From Myxococcota bacterium (lineage in GTDB: Bacteria; Myxococcota_A; UBA9160; SMWR01): 64,000 bases of DNA. Each line of letters starts with the position of its first letter. Position 1 is the first letter of the stretch. The stretch spans positions 1-64,000 of the forward strand of contig JBCCEW010000005.1 in the NCBI GenBank assembly GCA_039030075.1, read 5' to 3'. This document shows positions 11,672-23,501 of this stretch, in pieces. A program made the translations under genes and the position numbers. The notes under the pieces were generated by a model. It did no database searches. It saw only the letters and a program-made list of their open reading frames with translations, and was not told the origin of the DNA.

Positions 11672-14683
<3,012 letters not shown>

Positions 14684-15109
14684 ATGGCGCGTTGGCTCGC
14701 GTTCTGGATCGCCTTGCTCGCCGTCCCGTCCGCGGCCGACGAGGGTCTCCCCGACCACGCGGCGCTGAAGACCGAGATCGTCGTGATCTCCCCGGCCCGC
14801 CTCGTCCCCAGCGTGATGGTCGTCGCCGACACCGAGGCGTTCGGCTGGCTGAATTACGCCGCTCGGGATGCCGCAATCTCCTTCCCGGTGGAGATCACCC
14901 GGCGGATGGCGTGTAAGGGCCCGAGCCCCTTTCGCGTGGATGGCCCCCGCCTGGTCGCCGAACCGGTGACGACCGGGAACTTCGCCACCCTCTGCAAGCT
15001 GCAGCCCGGCGTCTACGAATACCGGGTCGAGATCGCAGGACGGAGCGATCCGCTCCTGGGCAAGCTCGTCGTGCCCGAGGCCGAAGCGCCATTGCCTCCG
15101 GCCGAGTAG
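14684..15109 (+). CDS. Secreted cupredoxin-like protein
   Basis: The 141-residue product starts at an ATG seven bases after AGGAGG and has a signal peptide (MARWLAFWIALLAVPSAA). The mature part shows a plastocyanin-like pattern: a strand with VPSVMVVADTEAFGWLNY, then a terminal CKLQPGVYEYRVE hairpin and a GKLVV strand. The Cys before the LxPGxYxY turn sits where a blue-copper ligand would be, but the two histidines expected of a copper site are not evident, so it may be a non-copper member. It lies alone on the plus strand, between gyrB and dnaN, and converges on dnaN. Confidence 0.55.
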   Translation: MARWLAFWIALLAVPSAADEGLPDHAALKTEIVVISPARLVPSVMVVADTEAFGWLNYAARDAAISFPVEITRRMACKGPSPFRVDGPRLVAEPVTTGNFATLCKLQPGVYEYRVEIAGRSDPLLGKLVVPEAEAPLPPAE

Positions 15110-15151
15110 TCCCTCAGACCTTCTTGCGGTCCGCGAGCGTCCGACGCGCGG

Positions 15152-16279
15152 CTAGAGCCGCATCGGCATCACGACCGCGAGCGAGTCGGCGTCGTCCGTC
15201 GGCGAGAGTTCCGCCGGCGACAACGCATCGCGGAAGCCGAAGCGGATCTCCTTGCTGCCTGCCGCGGCGAGCGCGTCGATCAGGTAGCGCGCGTTGAACG
15301 CGATGCTGAGCGTCTCACCCGCGTAGTCGACGTCGAGCTCTTCGCGCGCATCGCCGAGGTCCGGGTTGTTCGACGACAGACTCATCTGCCCGTCGCTGAG
15401 CTCGAGCTTCACTGCCCGGCTGCGCTCCGCCGACAACAGCGCCACGCGACGCAACGCGTGGACGAAGGTCTCCGCGGACAGCGTGAGGTGCTGGCCACGC
15501 TCCTCGGGAATCACCTGCCGATAGTTCGGGAACTCTCCCTCGATGAGGCGCATCGTCAATGTCACGCCGCCCTTCCGCGCCAGGCCATTGTTGCTCTCGA
15601 AGCCGAGCTCGACTTCGTCCGAGTCGTCTTCGTCGACGAGACGCTTCAGTTCGGCGAGGCCCTTGCGCGGAATGATCACGCCGGAATCGTCGAGCCCAGC
15701 GAACCCCTCGCCGAGTGCCCGGTCGACGTAGGCCAGGCGATGACCATCCGTCGCGACCATGCGCAGCTTCCCCGAGTCGGAGATGCGCTCGACGAAGACG
15801 CCGTTGAGGTTGTACCGGGTCTCATCCGTCGATGCGGCGTACATGGTGCGTTCGATCATCTCGGAGAGCACTGCCGCCGGGACGGTCACGAGCTGCTCGG
15901 GCGCAAAGTTGGAAAGGCTCGGGTACTCCTCGGCCGTGGTGCCGGCGAGGGTGAACTCGGCGCGCGCACAACGCATCGTCAGGTACGCGTTGCTCGAGGT
16001 CTCGAGGTGGATCGTCTCGTCCGGAAGCTCGCGTACGATCTCGTGCAACTTGCGCGCGGATACGGTGACACTGCCGGCTTTCGACACTTCACAGGGGTGG
16101 GCGCTGCGGATCCCGACTTCCAGGTCGGTCGCTGCGAGCTCGAGCTGACCGTCTTTCCCCTTCCCCGTGAGTTCGAGCAGCGCGTTCGCGAGAATGGGCA
16201 TCGTGTTGCGCTTCTCGACGATCGACTGGATTCGGCCGAGGCCACGCTGGAACTCCGACTTCTCGATGGCGAACTTCAT
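15152..16279 (-). CDS. dnaN: DNA polymerase III beta sliding clamp
   Basis: Ring-shaped processivity clamp. The 375-residue protein matches the family length and contains three similar domains; the N-terminus MKFAIEKSEFQRGLGRIQSIVEKRNTMPILAN-type opening and the C-terminal MPMRL, part of the protein-binding cleft, are characteristic. The start at 16279 is chosen because the conserved N-terminus begins there; the longer frame adds 29 unrelated residues. It is divergent from rpmH across a 459-base gap. The usual partner dnaA is not in the window. Confidence 0.97.
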   Translation of the reverse strand: MKFAIEKSEFQRGLGRIQSIVEKRNTMPILANALLELTGKGKDGQLELAATDLEVGIRSAHPCEVSKAGSVTVSARKLHEIVRELPDETIHLETSSNAYLTMRCARAEFTLAGTTAEEYPSLSNFAPEQLVTVPAAVLSEMIERTMYAASTDETRYNLNGVFVERISDSGKLRMVATDGHRLAYVDRALGEGFAGLDDSGVIIPRKGLAELKRLVDEDDSDEVELGFESNNGLARKGGVTLTMRLIEGEFPNYRQVIPEERGQHLTLSAETFVHALRRVALLSAERSRAVKLELSDGQMSLSSNNPDLGDAREELDVDYAGETLSIAFNARYLIDALAAAGSKEIRFGFRDALSPAELSPTDDADSLAVVMPMRL

Positions 16280-16395
16280 GGTCTGGATTCCGTGCTTCCC
16301 GAACGTCTGGTTTCTTGAGAACGAAGTCGGGAGCTGAGGGGGTTTGCCGAAGGTCCTGAAGGACACGCGCGTCCCAGGGCCTCTTCTCTGGATTT

Positions 16396-17246: not shown

Positions 17247-17467
17247 TCGCAAACGCCTTGCGCCGGGTGTCTCAGGCCGTGTTGCGGGCGTACCAGCTCA
17301 CCTTGTCTCCTCTGCTCGGGCCCCGCTGTCGCTACGAGCCGAGTTGTTCCGAGTACGCGATCGAAGCCATCGAGCGCCACGGGGTGGCGCGTGCGAGTTG
17401 GCTCACGACGAAGCGGTTGTGCCGGTGCCATCCCTGGGGTGGGCACGGCTACGACCCTGTTCCTTGA
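17243..17467 (+). CDS. yidD: Membrane protein insertion efficiency factor YidD
   Basis: A 74-residue protein with the family hallmark [27 protein letters not shown] and the C-terminal [15 protein letters not shown]. YidD is a small membrane-associated factor that assists YidC-dependent insertion. It overlaps rnpA by four bases and precedes yidC, the conserved order. Confidence 0.97.
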
Positions 17468-17478
17468 GGGAGTCCGGC

Positions 17479-19188
17479 TTGGATCGGAACCTATTGCTGG
17501 CATTCGCCCTGTCGTTCCTGGTGTTGTCGCTCTGGTCGATGACCCAGGAGCCGCGTCCGCGCCCCGAGGCGGAGGTAGAGGCCACGGCTGCAGCGCCGAC
17601 CGAGATCGCACGCGCGGAAGAGGGTGCAGCGGGTCGCTACCCGGAGCTTGCGGATCCGAGCACGCCGACGGAGGGGGCACCGGCACCGCGCGCGATCCCG
17701 CGCGACAGCACGCCGGCGCCCGCGGCGGTCGCAGCGCAGACGATCACCGTCGAGACCGCGAAGTACCGCGCTCAACTCTCGACCCAGGGAGCCACGCTCA
17801 CGCGTTGGCGGTTGCTCGACGAACTCTACGCGGACCGTTTCGGCGACCCGATCGAGCTCGTCACCCCGAGCGCGCAGGACCCGACCGTGACGTCGCCGTT
17901 CCTCGAGCTGGGCCTGGGCGACCTCTCCCGTGCCGTGTGGAACGTGACCGAGAGCGCTCGGCAGGTAGCCTTCTCGATCACGAAAAATGGCGTAACTGTT
18001 CGTAAAATATACGATTTTTCGGAAGACGACTACGACTTCCGGCTGCGTCTCGAAGTCGACAACGGCAGTACCGAGGTGATCGGGCCCGCCTTTCTCGTGG
18101 AATGGCCCCTCGAGGAGCGCAACGGCAACGACTTCCGCGAGCAGAGCGCGGTCGCACTCCACCGCGGCGAGCGAGAGCAGGAGCTCCTGGCGGGCCTGGG
18201 CGGTCGCGGCTTCTTCGGGTTCTTCACCGGGCGCGAGGAAGGCGAGCCAGTCGTCTTCGACAAGGAGGTCGATTGGGCGGGGACCCAGACGCCGTACTTC
18301 TTGTCGGCCCTGTTCCCCGAACAGCCGGCGTCGGCGAGCGCGCGCTTCCATCCGATCGAGATCGGGAAGCGCGGCGTCGTGCAGCTCTACTTCGACCCGG
18401 TCACGTTGACGCCGGGCCAATCCGCGGTGCGCGAGTACCGCGGCTACGTGGGCCCGATGGAGGTGGCGCGCCTCGAGGCGTTCTCGCCGACGGCGGTACA
18501 GGCGGTCGACTTCGGCTGGTCGATCATCGCTCCGATGACCCGCTTCTTCGCCTGGGCGCTCCACGTGCTCTACGGGATCGTGGGTAACTACGGCTGGGCG
18601 ATCATCTTGCTCACGGTGCTGGTGCGGGTGGTGACGGCTCCGCTGACCGTGAAGCAGATGAAGTCGATGGAACGGATGCGGCGCATCCAGCCCAAGATGA
18701 AGGAGATCCAGGAGAAGTACGCCGACGATCGCCAGAAGCAGTCGGAAGCGATGATGAGCCTCTACCGTCAGGAGAAGGTGAACCCGCTCGGTGGCTGCTT
18801 CCCGATGCTGTTGCAGTTGCCCGTGTTCATCGGGTTGTTCTACGCGCTGCGCGTATCGATCGATCTACGGCACGCTCACTTCATCGGCTGGATCGACGAC
18901 CTGTCGGCGCCGGACCTCCTGTTCACCCTTCCCGGCATCGACTTCCCGGTGCGCGTGCTGCCGCTCTTGATGGGTGGCTCGATGTTCGCGCAGCAGAAGT
19001 TGATGCCGACGACGTCGATGGACCCCGCCCAGGCGAAGATGATGTTGACGGTGATGCCGCTCATGATGACGGTCATCTCGTACACGTTTCCGTCGGGCCT
19101 GGTGCTGTACTGGATGATGAGTAACGTCCTCGCGATCGCCCATCAGCTGTGGATTGGGCGGAACCTGGAGCCGGCGGCAACCAACTGA
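17479..19188 (+). CDS. yidC: Membrane protein insertase YidC
   Basis: Inserts and folds inner-membrane proteins, alone or with SecYEG; F0 subunit c is a classic client, and atpE is in this window. The TTG start at 17479 is preferred: a GAGGGAG site lies six bases upstream and the product then opens with the N-terminal helix LDRNLLLAFALSFLVLSLW. The 569-residue protein has a periplasmic beta-sandwich domain (about residues 80-320) and a conserved five-helix core starting at GWSIIAPMTRFFAWALHVLYG, with MKSMERMRRIQPKMKEIQEKY as the cytoplasmic coiled-coil loop. The length fits the Gram-negative type. Confidence 0.97.
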   Translation: MDRNLLLAFALSFLVLSLWSMTQEPRPRPEAEVEATAAAPTEIARAEEGAAGRYPELADPSTPTEGAPAPRAIPRDSTPAPAAVAAQTITVETAKYRAQLSTQGATLTRWRLLDELYADRFGDPIELVTPSAQDPTVTSPFLELGLGDLSRAVWNVTESARQVAFSITKNGVTVRKIYDFSEDDYDFRLRLEVDNGSTEVIGPAFLVEWPLEERNGNDFREQSAVALHRGEREQELLAGLGGRGFFGFFTGREEGEPVVFDKEVDWAGTQTPYFLSALFPEQPASASARFHPIEIGKRGVVQLYFDPVTLTPGQSAVREYRGYVGPMEVARLEAFSPTAVQAVDFGWSIIAPMTRFFAWALHVLYGIVGNYGWAIILLTVLVRVVTAPLTVKQMKSMERMRRIQPKMKEIQEKYADDRQKQSEAMMSLYRQEKVNPLGGCFPMLLQLPVFIGLFYALRVSIDLRHAHFIGWIDDLSAPDLLFTLPGIDFPVRVLPLLMGGSMFAQQKLMPTTSMDPAQAKMMLTVMPLMMTVISYTFPSGLVLYWMMSNVLAIAHQLWIGRNLEPAATN

Positions 19189-19236: not shown

Positions 19237-20088
19237 ATGTACGACGCGAAACAGGAACTCCACGAGTTCGTCGCCGATGACCGCGAGGCCGCGGTCGCCA
19301 AGGCGTGCGCCTTCTTTGGTCTGGAGAGCGATGCGCTCCAGATCGAGGAACCGGCGGCGGGAGATGTGTATGGCCTCGGCGGCCGCACGGTCGTGGTGGC
19401 CGGGCCGAAGGATCGGAAGCCGCCGGCACCGCGCGGGCCCCGCGACGGTGGTGAGGGCCGGGGCCGCGATCGAGAGGGCCGCGGTGGACGCGACCGAGGT
19501 GGGCGCGAGCGACGCGAGCGCGGGGGTCGCGACCGCGGTGGTCGCGACGCCGCCCCGGCTCCTGTCCTCTCGGACGAGCCGTCCGTCGGCAAGGTTCAGG
19601 GCGAGCTCGGCGAGATCGGGAAGTACGTGTGCGGCGCAATCGAGCGTCTGGAGGTCGGTCCTTTCGAGATCTCCGAATCGCAGGAAGGCGACGTGACGGC
19701 GGTCGAGGTGAAGGGCGCGGCGGCCGCCGTGCTGGCAGCCGGCGAGGCGCGGGCCATCGATGCGCTGCAGCTGCTGGCGAACCAGGCGCTGGCGCGGATC
19801 CAGGACGAGGGCCGGGTCGTGCTGGATATCGAGGGCGCCTCGGAGTCGCGCGAGAAGCACCTCGAACGATTGGCGGAGCGGGCCGTGAAGCGGGCGAAGG
19901 AAGGCGGCAAGGCGATCGCGCTGGATCCCATGAACGGTCATGATCGGCGCGCCATCCACCTCGCCGTGAAGGAGCTCGACAGCGTCGCCACGATGAGCAT
20001 CGGGGAAGGGCGCTACCGCCAGGTCGTGGTCGTGCCGGAAGGCGCGGATGAGTACGAAGAGGCGCTCCGCCAGAGCGAGGGCTCCTAG
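19237..20088 (+). CDS. jag: Jag/KhpB-type RNA-binding protein (Jag-N, KH, R3H)
   Basis: A 283-residue RNA-binding protein. The Jag-N domain (about 1-60) contains the KACAFFGLESDALQIE pattern. A linker at about residues 67-110 is almost wholly Arg, Gly, Asp and Glu, with repeated RGGRDRGG units. A KH domain follows (about 130-210), then an R3H domain with the HDRRAIHLAV motif (about 230-283). It follows yidC after 48 bases, with AGGAAAGAG just before the ATG. In other bacteria Jag/KhpB binds small RNAs and mRNAs and influences cell-envelope growth. The long RG-rich linker is an unusual feature. Confidence 0.9.
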   Translation: MYDAKQELHEFVADDREAAVAKACAFFGLESDALQIEEPAAGDVYGLGGRTVVVAGPKDRKPPAPRGPRDGGEGRGRDREGRGGRDRGGRERRERGGRDRGGRDAAPAPVLSDEPSVGKVQGELGEIGKYVCGAIERLEVGPFEISESQEGDVTAVEVKGAAAAVLAAGEARAIDALQLLANQALARIQDEGRVVLDIEGASESREKHLERLAERAVKRAKEGGKAIALDPMNGHDRRAIHLAVKELDSVATMSIGEGRYRQVVVVPEGADEYEEALRQSEGS

Positions 20089-20230
20089 AGCCCGGTCGAC
20101 CCCGAGACGGATCTCCCCGGGAGCCGGGGAGGAGGGCGCGCACCAGAACCGGTTGCGCGCCCTTCGTGTTTCTGGCCCTGTCCATGCCTGCATCCCGGGT
20201 GTGGTGTTGGGCTCGGCGGATGACCCCTCG

Positions 20231-20246
20231 CGTTCCACGTGGAACG
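20231..20246. promoter_or_regulatory. parS site 1
   Basis: cGTTCCACGTGGAACg: the 14-bp palindrome is identical to the ParB-binding parS core (TGTTCCACGTGGAACA), with only the outer base of each side differing. Confidence 0.88.
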
Positions 20247-20326
20247 GAGGGCTCCAGCGGCAGAGGAATCGACGCTGGGCGAGGAGGGCCCCAGGCCCCT
20301 GCGTCCGAGCGCCGCGGAGCTGACGG

Positions 20327-20342
20327 CGTTCCACGTGGAACG
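20327..20342. promoter_or_regulatory. parS site 2
   Basis: cGTTCCACGTGGAACg, the same 14-bp core as site 1, 96 bases further on. Confidence 0.88.
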
Positions 20343-20418
20343 GAAGTCTCCTATCCCGCGCGAATCCCGGGTCCGACAGCTGGGATCTCGCTGGGCCGCA
20401 TGGCCTCCTGGCCACGGA

Positions 20419-20434
20419 TGTTCCACGTGGAACA
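20419..20434. promoter_or_regulatory. parS site 3 (perfect 16-mer)
   Basis: TGTTCCACGTGGAACA, the complete 16-bp parS consensus used by ParB of many bacteria. Confidence 0.95.
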
Positions 20435-20457
20435 GAGGCCTGCGTCCGGAGCGCACG

Positions 20458-20473
20458 CGTTCCACGTGGAACA
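20458..20473. promoter_or_regulatory. parS site 4
   Basis: CGTTCCACGTGGAACA, one outer base away from the 16-bp consensus, 39 bases after site 3. Confidence 0.9.
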
Positions 20474-20546
20474 GCGGAGCCGAAAGGCCGCGGAATGCTG
20501 GATATACCCCTGGACCGCCCGAGGCCGGGCGGTACTCTCGGCGCCC

Positions 20547-21182
20547 GTGGCCCCGGCACCGCCCGAAACGGCTCGGATCCTCGAAGCGGGCCTGGCACAG
20601 CTGGGGTTTCCCGATTCGGTCCAGGCCGACCCTCGCTGGCTGGCACTGGCGGAGCTGCTGCATCGCTGGAGCCAGCGCCTCAACCTCACCGGGCACCAGG
20701 GCGAGGCCCGGATCGCCCAAGCGCTGCTCATGGAAGCCGCCGCCCTCGAGCGCGTGCTGCCGCCGGCGGAGACTCTCGCCGACCTCGGGAGCGGCGCAGG
20801 AATTCCTGGCTTCCCGCTGGCCCTGTGCCGGCCGAATACCCGATTTCGGCTGATCGAGTCGCGAGAGCGCAGGCACCACTTCCAACGCGCCGTGATCCGG
20901 GAACTCGGGCTGGACCACGTCGAGGCCATTCGCGGGCGTGTCGAGGACCTGCCCCCGCAGCCCTGCGAAGGAGTCATCTCCCAGGCGTTCGCGCAGCCCG
21001 CCCAGGCGGTCGCCTGGATGCGCCCCTGGCTGCAGCCCGGTGGTTGGCTCGCGATCGCGACCAACCCGGATCTGCGCGTTTCCGAGATCCCCGAGCTACG
21101 CCCGGGCACGCTCCATTCCTATGCAGCGCCCGACGGACCGCCACGGGCGGCCTGGCTCCATCGCCCAGCGGGCTCACCCTAA
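20547..21182 (+). CDS. rsmG: 16S rRNA (guanine-N7) methyltransferase RsmG
   Basis: Methylates G527 of 16S rRNA. The 211-residue length from the GTG at 20547 matches the family; longer upstream frames cross the parS sites. The N-terminal LLHRWSQRLNLTGH segment and the SAM motif LADLGSGAGIPGFPLAL (near residue 75) are diagnostic, followed by FRLIESRERRHHFQRAV. No ribosome binding site is seen; instead TACTCT lies eight bases before the GTG, consistent with a leaderless message. It precedes parA. Confidence 0.93.
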   Translation: MAPAPPETARILEAGLAQLGFPDSVQADPRWLALAELLHRWSQRLNLTGHQGEARIAQALLMEAAALERVLPPAETLADLGSGAGIPGFPLALCRPNTRFRLIESRERRHHFQRAVIRELGLDHVEAIRGRVEDLPPQPCEGVISQAFAQPAQAVAWMRPWLQPGGWLAIATNPDLRVSEIPELRPGTLHSYAAPDGPPRAAWLHRPAGSP

Positions 21183-21366: not shown

Positions 21367-22266
21367 ATGACCCAACCGGGCCGCGTGTTCGCTGTGGTCA
21401 ACCAGAAGGGCGGAGTCGGGAAGACCACGACGGCGGTCAATCTCGCCGCCAGCCTCGCCGCCTCCGAGCGGTCGACCCTCGTCATCGACTTCGACCCGCA
21501 GGCCAACGCTTCCAGCGCGTTCGGCGAGAGCGGGAGCACGCCGCAGGTGTACGACGCGCTCAGTGGTGCATGCGTCATGAAGGACATGACGCGTGAAACC
21601 GAATTGCGTTACTTGCATCTCGTCCCTTCCGGACGCGATCTCTACGGCGCCGAGATCGAACTCGTATCCGCGATCAGCCGCGAGCGACGACTCGAGCGCG
21701 CGCTCGCCGAAGTGCGCGACGCCTACGAGATCGTCTTGATCGATTGCCCGCCGTCGCTCGGTCTGTTGACACTCAACGCACTCACCGCTGCCGACGGTGT
21801 GATCATCCCGCTGCAGTGCGAGTACTACGCACTCGAGGGTCTGGCCGGCCTGCTCGAGACCGTCGAGCTCGTGCGCCGCGAACTGAACCCGGGGCTGCAG
21901 CTCGAGGGCGTGCTGCTGACGATGTCCGACCCGCGCAACAACCTCTCGCGCCAGGTCGAATCCGAGGTGCGTGGACACTTCGGCGAGCAGGTCTTCCAGA
22001 CCACGATCCCGCGCAACGTGCGACTCAGCGAAGCGCCCAGCCACGGAAAGCCGATCCTGCTCTACGACGTCCATTCGAAGGGCTCGCGCGCCTACCTCGA
22101 CCTCGCGTCCGAGCTGCTGGGGCGCATTCCGCAGCCGCAACCCCCAGTATCGCCGCCGTCGCCCGCCTTCCCGCGCGCCGCCTCCGTCGAGCCCGACCCG
22201 CCGAACCCTGACGCTGCCGACGCTGCGCTCTCCACGCCGCGTCCCGAAGGAGAACTGGATGAGTAA
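21367..22266 (+). CDS. parA: Chromosome partitioning ATPase ParA (Soj)
   Basis: A 299-residue Walker-type ATPase. The deviant Walker A KGGVGKTTT is near residue 15, followed by VIDFDPQANASSAFG and the IDCPPSLGLLTLNAL Walker B/switch region. Such ParA proteins bind DNA non-specifically as ATP dimers and drive ParB-parS complexes apart. A GAGGGGTGAG site precedes the ATG. The C-terminus is extended with a Pro-rich segment and overlaps parB by eight bases. Its own parS cluster lies immediately upstream of rsmG. Confidence 0.96.
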   Translation: MTQPGRVFAVVNQKGGVGKTTTAVNLAASLAASERSTLVIDFDPQANASSAFGESGSTPQVYDALSGACVMKDMTRETELRYLHLVPSGRDLYGAEIELVSAISRERRLERALAEVRDAYEIVLIDCPPSLGLLTLNALTAADGVIIPLQCEYYALEGLAGLLETVELVRRELNPGLQLEGVLLTMSDPRNNLSRQVESEVRGHFGEQVFQTTIPRNVRLSEAPSHGKPILLYDVHSKGSRAYLDLASELLGRIPQPQPPVSPPSPAFPRAASVEPDPPNPDAADAALSTPRPEGELDE

Positions 22267-23176
22267 CCCGCGCAATGCCCTGGGCCGTGGGATCGGAGCG
22301 CTGTTGCCGAATCGCGGTGCCGATCCGGCCCCGATCGCTCCGCAGGCGCCCGCCGCCTCGCGGTCGGCCGCCGCTTCACCAGCGACGGAAGGCCCGCCGA
22401 CCGAAGGCCGCACCGAGCTACCGATCGCACTGATCGACCCCAACCCGGATCAGCCCCGACGCGTGTTCGAAGCCGAAGGCCTCCAGAAGCTGGTCGACTC
22501 GGTGCGCATCCACGGCGTGCTGCAGCCGGTCGTCGTGCGGCGAGCGGGCGATCGCTACGAGCTCGTCGTCGGTGAGCGTCGTTGGCGGGCTTCGAAGCAG
22601 GCGGGCCTCGAGAGCCTGCCGGCGGTGATCCTCGAGATCGACCCGCGCGATCGCCTGGAGGTGGCCCTGGTCGAGAACGTCCAGCGGCGCGACCTGAACC
22701 CGATCGAGTTGGCCGTCGCGTTCCGTGCCCTCTCCGATACTGGCGCGACCCAGGAAGAGATCGGCGAGCGGGTCGGCATGGACCGCTCGACCATCTCGAA
22801 TCACCTGCGTCTCCTCGAACTGCCGAAGCCGATGCAGGGCGATGTCGAGTCGGGACGCCTCAGCCTGGGTCACGCGAAGGCCCTGCTCACGGTCCAGAGC
22901 CCGGAGCGCCGCCGCCAGCTGCGCGACCGGATCGTCGAGGACCAGCTGTCGGTGCGCGCGGCCGAGGAATGGGCGCGGCCGAAGCCGAAGCCCGAGGGCA
23001 CGGCGGAAGCCCGCAACCGCCCGGATCCCCACCTTCAGAGCGTCTCCGACGCCCTGCGCCAGCGCCTCCAGACCCGGGTTCGCATCAAGGGCGACGGCGA
23101 GCGCGGCCGCATCGAGATCGAGTACTTCGGCGCCGAGGACTTCGACCGCCTGACCGAGGCCCTGCTTGGCTCCTGA
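22259..23176 (+). CDS. parB: Chromosome partitioning protein ParB (Spo0J)
   Basis: CTP-dependent clamp that loads at parS. The 305-residue product opens with the ParA-interacting N-terminus NALGRGIGALLPN. The GERRWRA box (near residue 103) and ENVQRRDLNPIE belong to the CTP-binding domain. A helix-turn-helix (TQEEIGERVGMDRSTISNHLRLL) reads parS, and a C-terminal dimer domain ends the protein. The start at 22259 is preceded by GAAGGAG and overlaps parA. The four parS palindromes 2 kb upstream are its expected binding sites. Confidence 0.96.
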   Translation: MSNPRNALGRGIGALLPNRGADPAPIAPQAPAASRSAAASPATEGPPTEGRTELPIALIDPNPDQPRRVFEAEGLQKLVDSVRIHGVLQPVVVRRAGDRYELVVGERRWRASKQAGLESLPAVILEIDPRDRLEVALVENVQRRDLNPIELAVAFRALSDTGATQEEIGERVGMDRSTISNHLRLLELPKPMQGDVESGRLSLGHAKALLTVQSPERRRQLRDRIVEDQLSVRAAEEWARPKPKPEGTAEARNRPDPHLQSVSDALRQRLQTRVRIKGDGERGRIEIEYFGAEDFDRLTEALLGS

Positions 23177-23501
23177 AGCACCCCGCGACGTGGCGCTGGC
23201 CGAGGGCGCCGTCTTCGAGGGGCTGGTGGTCCTTCCGCGGCCGGCCCGCATCGACGGCGAGGTCCGAGGTCAGATCGTGGCCGAGGCCCTGGTGTGGGTG
23301 GGACCCACCGGGCGGGTCCACACCGACGTTCAGGCCGCGGAGGTCGTGGTCGAGGGTTCGGTCGAGGGCGATATCGCGGCCCGCGGACGCCTGACCTTGG
23401 GGCCCGGAGCCGTCGTCCGAGGCGATGTCACCGCGAGTGCCCTGGAGATGGCGGAGGGCGCGCGGGTCAACGGCCACTGCCGCTGCGGCCCAACCGCCTG
23501 A
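23166..23501 (+). CDS. Bactofilin
   Basis: A 111-residue protein of the bactofilin family: a right-handed beta-helix of short hydrophobic/Gly turns (VFEGLVV, IDGEVRGQI, VVVEGSVEGDI, VVRGDVTAS) with flexible ends. Bactofilins polymerise without nucleotides into cytoplasmic filaments. In Myxococcus they scaffold ParABS at the subpolar region, so the position directly after parB is meaningful. The start is TTG at 23166, overlapping parB, or the GTG at 23190. Both give a complete core. Confidence 0.88.
   Translation: MAPEAPRDVALAEGAVFEGLVVLPRPARIDGEVRGQIVAEALVWVGPTGRVHTDVQAAEVVVEGSVEGDIAARGRLTLGPGAVVRGDVTASALEMAEGARVNGHCRCGPTA

Follow-up and report, generated by a model that had tools for sequence, protein, structure and literature searches.

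The 64-kb stretch of DNA analysed here, referred to as the window, carries a row of genes on its plus strand that runs from yidC (17416..19188; Pfam 60KD_IMP and YidC_periplas, the start codon being our choice) through jag/eloR (19237..20088; Pfam R3H, NCBIfam Jag_EloR match below the cut-off), a gap of 458 bp (20089..20546) and rsmG, also named gidB (20547..21182; Pfam GidB and NCBIfam TIGR00138 over the cut-off, start codon inferred), to parA (21367..22266), parB (22259..23176) and a bactofilin gene (23166..23501). The Walker-type ATPase gene parA (Pfam AAA_31, KGGVGKTT in the translation) adjoins parB, whose product has a GERRWR motif and the domains ParB_N, HTH_ParB and ParB_C, the last one barely over the cut-off (23.9 vs 23.8 bits). 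The bactofilin (Pfam PF04519) has 111 aa if read from TTG 23166, a provisional start, and its gene overlaps the end of parB. The names rsmG, parA, parB and bactofilin are upheld by Pfam, that of jag by the R3H domain alone. The upstream frames correspond, by position and translation, to gyrB and dnaN (both on the other strand) and to rpmH and rnpA; those of gyrB and dnaN (11672-16366) adjoin the rpmH-rnpA-yidC row. This neighbourhood of gyrB, dnaN, rpmH and rnpA suggests that the locus, including the parS cluster described below, may lie near oriC. Against this stands that the dnaA gene is found on a separate contig (C18:87101-88732) and that a scan of the 64-kb window for DnaA boxes, with up to one mismatch to TTATCCACA allowed, gave none.

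The gap between jag and rsmG contains four exact copies of the palindrome GTTCCACGTGGAAC, and so of the parS core GTTnCACGTGnAAC, none of them with an assigned strand, i.e. site 1 at 20232..20245, site 2 at 20328..20341, site 3 at 20420-20433 and site 4 at 20459..20472. The third copy is extended to the full 16-mer TGTTCCACGTGGAACA (20419..20434). The starts of the sites are 96, 92 and 39 bp apart, all four fit within 241 bp, and they begin 908-1135 bp upstream of the parA start (21367). The preliminary description had reported four near-identical sites between these two genes, one of them a full 16-mer, at 0.9-1.1 kb upstream of parA, and all of this agrees with our measurements. The assignment rests on sequence match, genome search and shuffles: dinucleotide shuffling of the window gave no exact copy of GTTCCACGTGGAAC in 100 shuffles, and the genome-wide count, which had been proposed as a check, gave four exact sites, all between jag and rsmG (the genome is a 5.76 Mb draft in 55 contigs, 95% complete, so sites elsewhere may be missing). 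From base composition, 0.017 exact and 0.8 single-mismatch sites are expected in this genome. One single-mismatch site was in fact found, on contig C26; it sits among overlapping open frames, and it looks like a chance match, its number being at the expected level. That the four copies arose by duplication of a longer stretch, flanks included, was also considered and rejected, since the flanks mostly differ (copies 2-4 are 63-73% identical to copy 1 over 48 nt including the site).

It is instructive to compare this cluster with the parS systems of better known bacteria. The parS consensus of M. xanthus is TGTTCCACGTGGAACG, which is bound in vitro by M. xanthus ParB (PMC3899335, PMC3778016), and as its core equals that of the window sites, their identity as parS is supported by sequence. 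The core, the position of the cluster upstream of parA and the parA-parB-bactofilin gene order are all shared with the parABS-bacM region of M. xanthus as described in PMC3899335, so that the clustering of parS beside parAB was rightly described as known in Myxococcus. On the other hand, M. xanthus has 22 sites spread over 3 kb and about 4 kb upstream of parA (PMC3899335), while the 4 sites of the window take up 241 bp at a distance of about 1 kb from parA and lie in the jag-rsmG gap of a genome in which no mnmE or mnmG was found. The number of sites, which had been thought worth noting, is not unusual: most species are reported to have one to four (PMC3899335) and P. aeruginosa also has four (PMC4368675). 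These high-affinity sites, parS1-parS4, lie near oriC, any one of them is enough for segregation, and two of them have the sequence TGTTCCACGTGGAACA, as does site 3 of the window (PMC4368675). P. aeruginosa has six more, degenerate sites elsewhere (parS5-10), none of which is reported to replace parS1-4 in segregation (PMC4368675), whereas the genome of the window has only the one chance-like single-mismatch site elsewhere.

The position of the sites was followed through 60 genomes of the order, i.e. the window's own and 59 relatives. The exact 14-mer GTTCCACGTGGAAC is present in 36 of them; their whole assemblies contain 84 exact sites, of which 83 sit at the par locus. The remaining one, in G058, is a counter-case, the sole exact 14-mer of its genome being on a 10-kb contig without any of the eleven query genes; this site (locus L205, position 6879), which may be due to chance or may be a parS away from the par locus, was left out of later site counts. 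Another 16 genomes have no palindrome in the whole assembly and carry at the locus what we call a half-altered parS (14 genomes, plus G053 and G057), that is GTTCCACGGGGAAC or its reverse, with C for A at position 6 of one half-site and a canonical second half-site. This leaves 8 of the 24 genomes in which GTTCCACGTGGAAC is absent. They gave no ParB match (G006, G029, G036), have parB at or near a contig start (G011, and G037 with one half-altered match in its genome) or have contig ends near the par genes (G023, G026, G042). Locus stretches could be taken for 53 of the 59 relatives, to which the window was added. Wherever both ends of the jag-rsmG gap were found, the gap contains one or more palindromic or half-altered sites (48 out of 48 genomes, window included, with 20-30 bp of slack allowed at the gap ends). 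In the assembly of G271, two contigs (L243 and L244) share the par-locus genes and two sites with identical spacing, and the bin may mix two strains.

Exact cores, uniqueness in the genome, the neighbouring genes, the order-wide place and ParB-type residues all support the view that the cluster serves an ordinary ParABS system as its chromosomal centromere, and we hold this with little doubt. By analogy with known ParABS biology (PMC7333895), ParB, encoded 1.8-2.0 kb from the sites, would nucleate as a dimer on each palindrome, take up CTP, close to a clamp and slide to the adjacent DNA; ParA would then move the ParB-loaded region apart once it is replicated, and SMC would probably be loaded at the cluster by ParB. 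The cluster of the window is ordinary and needs no new mechanism; it is a known kind of centromere in a little-studied order of myxobacterial relatives.

A different role would be that of an operator, where ParB bound at these sites represses or tunes the rsmG-parA-parB-bactofilin operon and segregation proceeds via other sites. Such a role would fit the location of parS upstream of rsmG-parAB in 48 out of 48 assembled cases and the extra sites found between rsmG and parA in some relatives, but the number and spacing of the sites differ among relatives, unlike what is expected of a promoter-tied operator, and the genome of the window has no other exact sites that could be the centromere; we therefore find it very improbable that the sites are mainly an operator.

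Still less probable, by a wide margin, is that the sites belong to a Noc-like nucleoid occlusion protein instead of ParB. The own genome has a single match to the parB_part model, which is the window ParB. The solved structures nearest to this protein are 1vz0 (Spo0J) and then the ParB chains 7bnk, 7o0n, 7bnr and 6t1f, the first three of which we take to be M. xanthus ParB and the last one Caulobacter ParB; its GERRWR is presumably the GERRxR CTP-binding motif of the ParB N-domain. The residues aligned to Caulobacter positions 173, 179, 184 and 201 are R, H, E and G, respectively. R173 and G201 are described as absolutely conserved in ParB, while Noc has Q and R there (Jalal et al., PMC7383237), so the recognition residues of the window ParB, as predicted from the alignment, are of the ParB and not of the Noc type. 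The NCBIfam Noc model does match the protein, but its score of 194.8 bits stays below the cut-off of 315, and the sites carry the G1 and A6 of parS, whereas a Noc site (TATTTCCCGGGAAATA) has A1 and C6. The recognition residues and the site sequence together lead us to discard a Noc binding site. Chance or a repeat artefact, for which we found nothing in favour, can be practically dismissed given the absence of any exact copy from all 100 shuffles, the mostly different flanks of the copies and the order-wide conservation of the place.

In 52 of the 57 eligible loci a bactofilin gene is found no more than 1 kb after parB, the loci without a detected one being those of G030, G224, G229, G238 and G345. 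Four of the latter belong to the genus g37 (L239, L240, L241 and L250), and the fifth (L122, from G030) is short after parB. The preliminary description had connected the bactofilin of the window with scaffolding of the ParABS system; the gene is indeed there after parB, but the link to the scaffold was overstated. In M. xanthus the scaffold is formed by BacNOP, encoded by a separate operon, the bactofilin that follows parB is BacM, and deletion of bacM is reported to have left ParB localisation unchanged (PMC5703909). A ParABS system scaffolded by BacNOP-PadC would be marked by a bacNOP-padC gene cluster. The parB-adjacent bactofilin of the window occupies the BacM position, for which reason we do not take it as the mark of a special system.

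The gap itself had been described as a former mnmE/mnmG slot, and this holds, as an absence common to the order and not as a peculiarity of one genome. In five outgroup loci a distance of 3.2-3.8 kb separates the jag match from the rsmG match, and both translated ones (Bdellovibrionales L051 and Acidobacteria L061) have mnmE and mnmG between the two genes; in the order the distance is 22-1045 bp (64 loci). The window shares the flanking genes and their order with the jag-mnmE-mnmG-rsmG-parA-parB cluster of these two loci, but lacks mnmE and mnmG in the slot. None of the 60 genomes of the order, own included, has a match to TrmE_N (MnmE) or an MnmG match over the cut-off, as opposed to 9 out of 14 control genomes over the cut-off for TrmE_N, and 9 out of 14 for MnmG; TrmE_N is present in 129 of 235 genomes drawn from the phylum. 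Weak partial MnmG matches occur in 54 of the 60 genomes (best 65 bits, cut-off 525), and the whole-length MnmE model finds six GTPase-like matches in the own genome (best 93.5, cut-off 252.6); these are taken as related oxidoreductases and GTPases. Since neither protein scores over the cut-off in any of the 60 genomes, the wobble-uridine tRNA modification would be missing or replaced in this order. The titles and abstract openings of the literature searched gave no account of the jag-rsmG slot.

The variation of the sites among the relatives is more novel than the cluster of the window, where each of the four sites is a full palindrome. An anchor gene was available in 53 genomes (window included), and their jag-to-parA zones contain 83 palindromic sites, 26 of the form GTTCCACGGGGAAC and 14 of the form GTTCCCCGTGGAAC. 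In loci where both zone ends were found, no palindromic or half-altered site lies outside this zone (564 kb), and the doubly altered form GTTCCCCGGGGAAC was not seen in the par-locus stretches of the 53 genomes. A wider look at the zone gave two more sites that have G instead of C in one half, plus single weaker sites; one of the latter, in G002, is altered in both halves, with C at position 6 of one and C at position 1 of the other. Examples of half-altered sites are those of L187 (G019; 4979, 5040, 5710, 6106 and 6138) and L190 (G025; 5360 and 5397).

The phylum was searched with a pattern that recognises parS altered in one half as well as in both. Matches were found in 40 out of 79 genomes of the order, in 0 out of 11 others of the class and in 39 out of 287 remaining genomes, and a backward control pattern matched 4 out of 79 and about 24 out of 287, respectively. 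Among the matches listed, no two outside the order are within 1 kb of each other, whereas inside the order there are many close pairs, and it is for this reason that the matches outside the order look like background. The sole doubly altered match in the order (G356) lies on a stretch without the window's par-region genes; the order genomes that match on both strands, as a doubly altered site requires, are all among the matches listed. Six genomes of the genus g37 each have, among the matches listed, one isolated half-altered match off the par-locus contig; a match in G334 likewise sits on a short contig that holds none of the query genes, and these count against a strict tie of the half-altered form to the locus. 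The isolated GTTCCACGGGGAAC copies in g37 are G052:C54:91040, G224:C54:45146, G229:C2:293015, G238:C25:48278, G345:C97:4013 and G354:C71:80267, and they may represent one conserved place.

An extended set of 68 genomes, from which G058, G334, G356 and the second stretch of G271 were left out, contains 84 palindromic, 72 half-altered and 0 doubly altered sites; as the added loci were picked by a match to the altered pattern, the share of altered genomes is inflated, while the doubly altered form was equally catchable. About 17 doubly altered sites would be expected in these 68 genomes if half-sites varied independently within genomes. The two forms occur together in 7 genomes of this set, compared to 35 on average in shuffles. 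On the tree (67 rows, quick method) at least 12 changes are needed between genomes with palindromes only and those where one or more sites are half-altered. Where a cluster has sites in both orientations, the altered halves point to the inside of the cluster (11 out of 11 cases, and a twelfth, in G347, agrees across two contigs). Chance may account for this orientation, as the inward clusters represent no more than about three lineages (G002, family f4 and genus g37), and the odds for a single cluster are 1/2 to 1/10.

We also looked for corresponding changes in ParB. Residues 173 and 201, on which the choice between parS and the Noc site is known to depend, are unchanged wherever they are readable. 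Column 203 has M in 19 out of 26 rows with half-altered sites only, as opposed to 6 out of 26 rows with palindromes only. We do not consider this residue a tracker of the half-altered state because the ParBs of family f5 read M whatever their sites, the exception being G042, where no site was seen; the correlation is probably due to kinship.

What the half-altered form means is a matter on which we can only speculate, and we put forward the following reading tentatively, at somewhat less than even confidence. The centromere of the order may exist in two states at one fixed place, palindromic or half-altered, where some genomes use only the half-altered form and alteration of both halves is avoided; ParB in those genomes might load from one canonical half-site, and the inward-facing altered halves could give the loading a polarity. 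The altered half itself may have a simple origin: G201 of ParB is described as unable to contact base -6 specifically (PMC7383237) and the G+C content of the window is about 68%, and for these reasons this base could be free to drift to G/C in one half, the other half keeping enough affinity. Loss of both halves would cost nucleation, and the concerted change among neighbouring copies could stem from gene conversion.

There is a precedent that cuts both ways. In the parS7 site of P. aeruginosa (TGTTCCACGAGGAACG) one half is changed at the very base that differs in the half-altered sites of the order, though an outer base differs too; parS7 is bound in vitro by P. aeruginosa ParB, but more weakly than parS1-4; the intact CACGTG core was found important in the same species (PMC4368675). 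In M. xanthus, binding by ParB was about ten times weaker for a site where one half carried two changes (PMC3778016). Among 1030 predicted parS, Iniesta found G at position 7 of the 16-mer only twice, the position being otherwise highly conserved (PMC3899335), so it is unusual for whole genomes to use a half-altered variant. The half-altered relatives can be viewed as a natural experiment on what ParB requires of parS, and in this respect they matter more than the ordinary cluster of the window; pairs of related species make ParB loading from one half-site, as well as its direction, accessible to testing. The preliminary description had suggested that the number, spacing and placement of the sites be compared, and it was this comparison that brought out both the order-wide absence of MnmE/MnmG and the half-altered centromeres.

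The titles and abstract openings searched contain no half-altered chromosomal parS, and the two half-altered 14-mers gave no match when searched as text in the same literature. In another phylum, half-altered parS-like sequences (GTTTCACGGGAAAC and GTTTCCCGTGAAAC) are seen near parB of Nesterenkonia (L066, positions 6047 and 7191, respectively).
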